Positions 5,786 through 6,934 of a DNA stretch of 39,996 nucleotides are shown here, in pieces. A program made the translations under genes and the position numbers. Location of the stretch: positions 1 to 39,996 of the forward strand of contig JAPPGP010000157.1 of NCBI GenBank assembly GCA_028821395.1. Reading direction: 5' to 3'. This stretch comes from Defluviicoccus sp. (GTDB lineage: Bacteria > Pseudomonadota > Alphaproteobacteria > MPNO01). Position 1 is the stretch's first letter. Every line of letters begins with the position of its first letter. The notes under the pieces were generated by a model. That model saw only the letters and a program-made list of their open reading frames with translations. It did no database searches and was not told the origin of the DNA.

Positions 5786-6463
5786 CTACAAGAGCGCCTT
5801 CAGCGCTTCCTCGAAGGCCTCGTCGTCCCAGCCGAACGGCCCCTTGGCGCCGGCATAGGCGATCCTGCCCGCGGCGTCGATCAGGAACTGGCGCATCGGC
5901 AGGCCGACATATTTCTCCTCGACGTCGTTGTCGATGCGGTCGACGAGCATCGGCATCTCGATGTCGAGCGCGAGCTGGCAGGCCGCAGCGATTCCGGTGC
6001 GCTCTGCGTCGGTGACGGGCTCGTCGTAGATCACGTCCTCGATCAGATTGTTGGGCACCTGCCAGCCATTGGCGGGGTGCGCCTCGCGGATGTAGATCAG
6101 GAAGAACTCCACCCGGTCCCTGTAGGTCTCGTAGAGCTCGTCAAGGCGCACGGCCTTGCCGCGGAAGGGGGGTCAGGTGAACGAGCCGAAGGCGATCGCG
6201 ACCGGCCTCCCCCGGTAGTCGGAGAGCCGCACCTGCTCGCCGGTCCGCCTGCGGTTGCGGTCGAGCCGGTCGGCGACGAAATCGGGCGCCATCGAGCCGA
6301 CCCGCGGCACCCTCCCCTCGCGCGCCTTCTGCTCGGCCATGTGGGCGTCGAACTGGGCCTCGGTGATGTCGGAGATCTGGAGCCAGACGTCGCGGCGCTG
6401 CGCCATGTCCATGGCGCGGTATTCGTCGAGGGTAACCGGGCTTTCCATCGCTGCGTTCGCCAT
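5786..6463 (-). CDS. Iodothyronine-deiodinase-like selenoprotein (in-frame TGA as selenocysteine)
   Basis: This is one 226-codon frame interrupted only by TGA at 6173-6175 (codon 97). Residues before it (GRPVAIAFGSFT) and after it (PPFRGKAVRLDEL, then EFFLIYIREAHPANGW) match the thioredoxin-fold deiodinase active site, in which selenocysteine sits in FGSxTUPPF and is followed by IYIxEAHxxxGW. The N-terminal ~60 residues are a helical extension (YRAMDMAQRRDVWLQI). The C-terminal part is a redoxin-like fold (PMRQFLIDAAGRIAYAG). The start ATG at 6463 has AGGGAG 11 nt upstream. GC3 bias is the same on both sides of the TGA, and no other interruption exists. The likely role is a thiol/selenol redox enzyme or dehalogenase; the substrate is unknown. 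The alternative is two broken halves, which is unlikely. Confidence 0.85.
6142..6158 (-). promoter_or_regulatory. Candidate bacterial SECIS hairpin
   Basis: In the mRNA, 14 nt after the UGA, CAAGGC pairs perfectly with GCCUUG around the 5-nt loop CGUGC (loop at +21 to +25 from the UGA). Bacterial SECIS elements have a short upper stem with a small G/U-containing loop about 16-25 nt after the UGA, as in E. coli fdhF. The hairpin lies within coding sequence, which is where bacterial SECIS elements occur. It would be read by SelB. Confidence 0.6.
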
Positions 6464-6541
6464 CGGCGCGCTTCTCCCTGCGCTTCCCACCGCCCCAAAT
6501 TAGGCGAGGCGGCCGAGGTCTTCAACGCCCGGCGCCACCCC

Positions 6542-6934
6542 TCAGATCACCTCGCGGGAGCCGTCGGAGTAGCGGATCTTCACGGTGACCGTGCCCTCGT
6601 TCATCAGCCACGGGCGGATTGTGAACGACCGTGCGCCGGAGGCATGCATCGGGTCGGCGGCGGCGATCTCCTTCGCCTCGTCGAGACTGGCGGCGCGGAC
6701 GATCACCATCCCCTCGCCCAGCCACTCGGTCTCGTCGTCGTTCCAGAACGGGCCGGCGCCGAACATGATGCCGCGCGCCTCCAGCGAGACCTGGTATTCG
6801 AGATGCGGCCCGATATTCTCCATCACCGGGCCGAGCCCGTTCGTCGGCGTGGTGAAGACGACGTAGAGCTGCTTCTGCAGCATGCCCTCGCAGGCATTCA
6901 TAACGTCTTCCTTCATCACCTTCGGTCCAGCCAT
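6542..6934 (-). CDS. YCII-related domain protein
   Basis: This 130-residue protein is of the YCII/DGPF-like ferredoxin-fold group. Indicators are QLYVVFTTPTNGLGPVMENIGPHLEYQVSLEARGIMFGAGPF (strand, helix, strand), MVIVRAASLDEAKEIAAADPMHASGARSFTIRPW (the family's characteristic 'DP...' end of the second half), and a short tail. An excellent ribosome site (GGAGG, 5 nt) precedes ATG 6934, although the frame stays open further upstream as a shadow. Proteins of this fold are small dimeric enzymes or binding proteins of mostly unknown role. It lies between a cyclotransferase-like gene and the deiodinase-like selenoprotein on the same strand. Confidence 0.75.
   Translation of the reverse strand: MAGPKVMKEDVMNACEGMLQKQLYVVFTTPTNGLGPVMENIGPHLEYQVSLEARGIMFGAGPFWNDDETEWLGEGMVIVRAASLDEAKEIAAADPMHASGARSFTIRPWLMNEGTVTVKIRYSDGSREVI

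Follow-up and report, generated by a model that had tools for sequence, protein, structure and literature searches.

The question raised by this locus is whether a bacterial gene that appears to be broken by a stop codon is defunct or divided, or is an intact gene in which UGA is read as selenocysteine (Sec). It lies at positions 5,786 to 6,463 of a stretch of 39,996 nucleotides (here termed the window) from the Defluviicoccus sp. assembly GCA_028821395.1, contig JAPPGP010000157.1, and an earlier interpretation made from the letters alone (the sequence-only reading) had proposed that it encodes a selenoprotein resembling the vertebrate iodothyronine deiodinases. The analysis reported here indicates that an intact gene with UGA read as Sec is the most likely answer. 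Comparative sequence evidence suggests that the gene is almost certainly decoded in this way, and the joint statement, that it is a deiodinase-family selenoprotein with Sec inserted at the UGA, is predicted to hold with high probability. The term deiodinase is used for the product as a family name, its enzymatic activity being only predicted.

On the minus strand, which the sequence-only reading had left unstated, the frame runs from an ATG at 6463 through a TGA at 6175..6173 (codon 97) to a TAG stop at 5788..5786. The proposed extent of one continuous gene was thus right, at 225 codons plus TAG, and so was the statement that the single in-frame TGA is its only disruption. It had also been noted that the two pieces look like separate open reading frames (ORFs), and the ORF list does hold two fragments only, 5786..6151 and 6173..6490. 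The similar codon bias that had been described for the two sides of the TGA is reflected in a GC content at codon positions 1, 2 and 3 of 0.68, 0.48 and 0.95 before it and 0.68, 0.37 and 0.92 after it. The Sec-containing product reads AIAFGSFT-U-PPFRGKAVRLDELY around this codon and, further on, LIYIREAHPANGW. The start ATG aligns with that of the same-genus relatives L017-L019, and all three of the same-genus relatives compared retain the TGA and have substitutions mainly at third positions on both sides of it.

Conservation of the TGA extends well beyond the genus. The gene is present in five of the six genomes of the taxonomic family (its own included) with exactly one TGA in each, the four others being 71-88% identical. 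At the level of the order, a match was obtained in 19 of 27 genomes, every one of the 19 having at least one TGA form, and in a draw of 385 genomes from the class a match was found in 20, with a TGA form in 12 and none in eight (one of which, G139, is marginal). Among loci from named genomes, the best 80 of at least 586 confirmed relatives were taken, many of the loci L070-L149 sharing contigs with L016-L069; in these 80 the active-site codon is TGA in 78 (L116 included), TGC in one (L136) and masked bases in one (L089). By title or by label on a quick, midpoint-rooted tree with long branches flagged, the 80 include Alpha-, Beta- and Gammaproteobacteria, Chloroflexota, Acidobacteriota and Myxococcota, and the closest among them are metagenome-assembled genomes (MAGs) titled Defluviicoccus sp. 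(L070, L071, L080), 87-89% identical. The comparison of relatives that had been suggested as a check thus found either TGA or Cys at this position, with homologous sequence continuing past it. A sequencing error is very unlikely because other species and genera show the same TGA in their own assemblies, and that explanation was rejected. Plasmid records contained nothing similar at the DNA level to a 1101-base query.

The machinery for Sec insertion, a further suggested check, is complete: selA, selB, selC (tRNA-Sec) and selD were all found in the 4.94 Mb assembly (completeness 100%, contamination 5.3%), in which the window is contig C73. The tRNA-Sec is on C236 (76.7 bits, over the cut-off; called tRNA-SeC with anticodon TCA by ARAGORN), selA and selB adjoin on C71 and selD is on C62, all over their cut-offs. 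A second tRNA-Sec family match, on C198 (48.1 bits, over the cut-off), is called tRNA-Ser by ARAGORN. Across the class draw selA exceeded its cut-off in 56 of 385 genomes, including all 12 with a TGA form (hypergeometric 3e-11, kinship uncorrected) and four of the eight having only non-TGA forms (G128, G233, G322, G399); outside the gene's own order it was present in 8/8 genomes with a TGA form (hypergeometric 6e-8, likewise uncorrected). Within the order selA was over the cut-off in 25 of 27 genomes and in 18 of the 19 with a TGA form. A less expected finding is that throughout one sister genus (9/9 genomes, G009-G017; loci L024-L032) the TGA-form homologue immediately precedes selA and shares its strand, with a gap of less than about 80 bp between the two matches and with selB next after selA where the locus is long enough (L092 and L093, the contigs of L031 and L032). 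The same order of TGA-form gene and selA is seen in L089, and in L075 selA-selB follow some 1.4 kb further on, with an oppositely oriented DUF3179 gene in between. As far as the contigs allow a judgement, the gene and selA are not adjacent in the window's own genome; C71 ends just before selA. The titles or abstract openings of the literature searched made no linkage of deiodinase-like genes to a sel operon evident.

Just 3' of the UGA lies a hairpin with a G in its small apical loop, a feature described for the bacterial selenocysteine insertion sequence (SECIS) in PMC1088965. The case for it depends on covariation in related sequences; single-sequence foldings yielded no significant hairpin. 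The loop is CGTGC in 66 of the 91 distinct stretches compared. In the 84 with at least four pairs, facing stem codons change together (AAG/CTT in 15, CAG/CTG in 29, GAG/CTC in 12, GGG/CTC in 7), as do those of a second set (GCC/CGC in 51, GCC/CGT in 8, TCC/CGA in 6, ACC/CGT in 2): changes among Lys, Gln and Glu stand opposite silent changes in a Leu codon, and changes among Ala, Ser and Thr opposite silent changes in an Arg codon. This two-sided covariation, unusually clear here, goes beyond what coding alone explains. All six stem pairs form in 48 of the 91 stretches, where a synonymous null (pooled codon use, kinship uncorrected) gave a mean of 3.4 and a maximum of 10 in 1000, and at least five form in 77 (null mean 21, maximum 34). 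Pairing reaches 93.3% in the 70 stretches with GTG in the loop, compared with a shuffle mean of 75.8% and 24-47% in slid registers. The Cys forms comparable at this register (L052 and the identical L053 and L064) have not kept the hairpin sequence.

A number of observations weigh against decoding with Sec. The same-genus genome G002 (89% complete) has selA, yet no homologue of the gene was found in it, and G008, a MAG that is 93% complete, carries TGA-form genes without a selA match. Given 5.3% contamination the sel contigs could be foreign, yet each of the five remaining family genomes also has selA. The 66-nt stretch around the hairpin folds no better than shuffles (z 0.35), and the hairpin appears in its centroid and is absent from its minimum-energy fold. 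Of the 70 GTG stretches only 45 have a standard outermost stem pair, and for the 21 that lack GTG the share of paired cells at this register is 71%. These 21 come from loci titled Chloroflexi, Dehalococcoidia, SAR202, Acidobacteria, Bryobacterales or -aceae, Myxococcota or Deltaproteobacteria; most of them form a hairpin displaced by some bases. In L133, L134, L137, L139-L141, L143 and the Chloroflexota loci it seems to stand closer to the UGA than in Proteobacteria, and the SECIS element thus seems to have been displaced between lineages.

That the product is a thioredoxin-fold protein of the deiodinase family can be stated with very high confidence. The read-through product matches Pfam T4_deiodinase (PF00837) at 3e-24 (86.1 bits against a gathering cut-off of 27), and the two parts make up one gene beyond chance because the part after the TGA by itself gives 8.2e-17 and the whole 3e-24; the part before it matches only AhpC-TSA, below threshold. 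The best NCBIfam match, NF038285 (deiodinase_rel), reached 175.4 bits over residues 62-231 of a 234-residue query, short of the curated cut-off of 250, the matched stretch being only positions 176-341 of the 347 in the model. A sequence search of the PDB placed mouse Dio2 (1.6e-18) and Dio3 (2.3e-14) at the top with their Sec/Cys aligned, and the best solved matches to the predicted fold were likewise Dio2 and Dio3. The product shares with vertebrate Dio1-3 (solved: 9h48, 4tr3; PMC11592359), the enzymes that take iodine off thyroid hormones, its fold, the Sec position, the TUPPF motif, the EAHP..GW segment and a Lys at the position of Dio2 Lys241, but its SECIS is bacterial and within the coding sequence, and no N-terminal membrane anchor was seen in the first helices of the model. 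Like the bacterial deiodinase-like selenoproteins reported in 2005 by Zhang, Fomenko and Gladyshev, who described Sec and Cys forms with bacterial SECIS elements in Sargasso Sea data (PMC1088965), it combines PF00837, an in-frame UGA and a SECIS directly downstream with the existence of Cys homologues. Such proteins have therefore been in print since 2005, and the present one adds a member to a known kind. A Global Ocean Sampling (GOS) paper lists 22 (PMC2398784), a 2021 paper describes a fusion with an EF-hand domain (PMC9402790), and the family appears with the motif UxxC in two reviews, of 2022 and 2026 (PMC9312934, PMC13188914). The later review states that the functions of such proteins are largely unknown (PMC13188914), as the sequence-only reading had said, and no assayed bacterial deiodinase was evident from titles or abstract openings in the literature searched.

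Residues were tabulated for 107 distinct proteins chosen by active-site motif pattern (94 UPP-type, three UPYC-type and 10 Cys-type), identical rows being collapsed (L064 with L053, for example) and pattern mismatches (L056-L059, L061, L063, L065, L089, L116) left out. The network residues of Dio2 whose roles are given in PMC11592359, Ser127, Thr129, Tyr157, Glu160 and His162, are all matched in the product, as Ser94, Thr96, Tyr124, Glu127 and His129, which bears out the proposal that the residues flanking the TGA follow the vertebrate active site. The network is retained in nearly all of the 107 proteins, and Tyr124, Glu127 and His129 are each kept in every protein of the three types (94/94, 3/3 and 10/10). 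In contrast to the UxxC of the reviews, the present protein and 93 others have UPP[F/Y] with a separate conserved Cys, although UxxC was also seen, in the three UPYC proteins. Less expected than family membership, this second Cys, at position 162, is universal in the UPP-type proteins compared (94/94) and found in none of the three UPYC-type; two of the 10 Cys-type have it. The UPYC proteins (L043, L054, L055) form a second Sec type in the family, FGSFT-U-PYC, which has its partner Cys three residues further along and lacks the distal Cys found in the UPP type.

The decoding step is well supported: SelB carrying Sec-tRNA-Sec is predicted to bind the hairpin (6158..6142), with Sec inserted at UGA 6175..6173. 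A possible mechanism can also be outlined. Within the network shared with vertebrate deiodinases, the Sec97 selenolate may attack a soft electrophile, either a peroxide or a halogen carried by an activated ring, taken up as Se-X; Cys162 would resolve this to a selenylsulfide, to be opened by a thioredoxin- or glutathione-type reductant. Such a Sec/Cys162 cycle falls a little short of an even chance. Two differences from the vertebrate enzymes count against this mechanism: Dio2 His182, the proton relay, aligns with Pro (of the 94 UPP-type proteins, 87 have Pro there and seven His), and Dio2 Cys205 aligns with Met, which leaves Cys162 away from the vertebrate distal-Cys position, both the proximal and the distal Cys being placed elsewhere. 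The Phe that shields the site in Dio2 and Dio3 is Pro here, as is stated for Dio1 (PMC11592359).

Dehalogenation is a plausible activity, whilst a halogenated substrate is rather unlikely. Still less probable is the specific proposal of a selenium-dependent bacterial reductive dehalogenase of small aromatic halides (of the iodo- or bromotyrosine kind), free of corrinoid and flavin, in which Sec97 would remove the halogen as a selenenyl halide and Cys162, built in here and absent at that place in vertebrate deiodinases, would complete the cycle via a selenylsulfide. Were it true, the fold would have two bacterial Sec solutions, this one and UPYC with its partner Cys three residues off.

The alternative that survives best leaves Sec decoding untouched and contests dehalogenation: the same selenoprotein might be a peroxiredoxin- or thiol-peroxidase-like antioxidant, with Sec97 reducing peroxides, Cys162 resolving and the deiodinase-like loop serving another substrate. 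A redox role was proposed in 2005, thyroid hormones not being expected in bacteria (PMC1088965), and AhpC-TSA is also over its cut-off on the read-through product (3.4e-9, 37.1 bits against 26; Redoxin is under its own), with AhpE, Tpx (atypical two-cysteine thiol peroxidases) and Prx1-4 within the top 50 fold matches. However, Dio2 and Dio3 come out ahead of the peroxidases, with 86 bits against 37 in Pfam and likewise in the PDB sequence search and in fold. Tpx and AhpE, which from their aligned lengths appear to lack the deiodinase segment, score lower in both fold and sequence, and the deiodinase network is widely kept; these rankings and residues are evidence of kinship, not of substrate. 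A peroxide-type role is put at somewhat under one half, with our remaining expectation going to another thiol-redox role.

Far less credible, and rejected, is SelB-independent read-through with Cys or Trp: Cys does occupy the position in other homologues, but tRNA-Sec, selA, selB and selD are all present, TGA forms and selA co-occur, and the covarying hairpin stands at the usual place of a bacterial SECIS and has a G in its apical loop, its sequence not being kept in the three comparable Cys forms. Equally improbable, and also rejected, is a real stop, leaving a pseudogene or two short proteins, which has on its side the two fragments of the standard ORF list and the use of TGA as an ordinary stop elsewhere in the genome (as in the YciI-like neighbour), and against it the recurrence of TGA at the catalytic codon in the four other family genomes and 78 of the best 80 loci, where other homologues have Cys, and the mainly third-position changes on both sides.

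What ordinary ORF calling splits in two is thus most likely a full selenoprotein, and the contrast between UPP-type proteins, always with a second Cys in those compared, and UPYC-type, with none, frames the question of the role of bacterial deiodinase-like proteins. A halogenated substrate would make the answer relevant to how the thyroid-hormone enzymes of vertebrates arose and to marine organohalogen turnover; with any other substrate, the protein would still represent a new two-residue Sec/Cys redox couple.

Table 1. Positions in the window of the deiodinase-like gene, its elements and the adjoining gene
Feature	Position	Strand	Remarks
Deiodinase-like selenoprotein gene	5786..6463	minus	225 codons + TAG stop, one in-frame TGA
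TGA codon 97, predicted Sec (FGSFT-U-PPFR)	6173..6175	minus	aligns with catalytic Sec (Cys in crystals) of Dio2 and Dio3
Putative bacterial SECIS hairpin, CAAGGC-CGUGC-GCCUUG	6142..6158	minus	14 nt after TGA; covariation in relatives
Codons 124-129 (Y-I-R-E-A-H)	6077..6094	minus	Tyr124, Glu127, His129 align with Dio2 Tyr157, Glu160, His162
Cys162 codon, candidate resolving cysteine for Sec97	5978..5980	minus	from the residue table
GGGAG	6474..6478	minus	10 nt 5' of ATG; putative ribosome-binding-like sequence
YciI-like (YCII domain) neighbour	6542..6934	minus	78 bp upstream; start codon uncertain; own stop TGA

The YciI-like gene adjoins the homologue in the same order in L017-L019. Among loci L016-L149 the gene neighbourhood shows no pathway shared beyond the genus: only same-genus loci have the YciI-like, small downstream and DHO_dh neighbours. 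That the YciI-like neighbour might be a dehydrochlorinase is conjecture. A link to a sponge host or to halogenated tyrosine was considered, a same-genus bin being titled RHO2_bin_2; no record or paper giving the habitat was found, and no such link is claimed. A paralogous UPP-type gene in L096, L108, L110, L113, L125 and L148 belongs to a conserved run in which a PhyH dioxygenase gene directly follows it, a glyoxalase-fold gene directly precedes it and a RidA-like (L-PSP) gene is also present, these neighbours being identified from one locus of each family; the run looks like a catabolic cluster. The window otherwise (449-39948, 30 chosen ORFs) looks like ordinary chromosome, with genes for DHO_dh, phosphomannomutase, UDP-sugar dehydrogenase, molybdopterin oxidoreductase, UbiD, 3-dehydroquinate synthase, a tyrosine recombinase, SecA and MFS.

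Some relatives are irregular. The titles of L089 (Flavobacteriales TMED123) and L075 (Devosia equisanguinis) clash with the close kinship of their genes to those of Rhodospirillales type, and both may possibly be mis-binned or mislabelled. The homologous stretches in L063 and L065 start past the active site and contain no stop; they are perhaps remnants or fragments, and their genomes also carry full TGA-form copies. In one betaproteobacterial MAG (L104, 5893-7337) two TGA-form copies stand head to tail.
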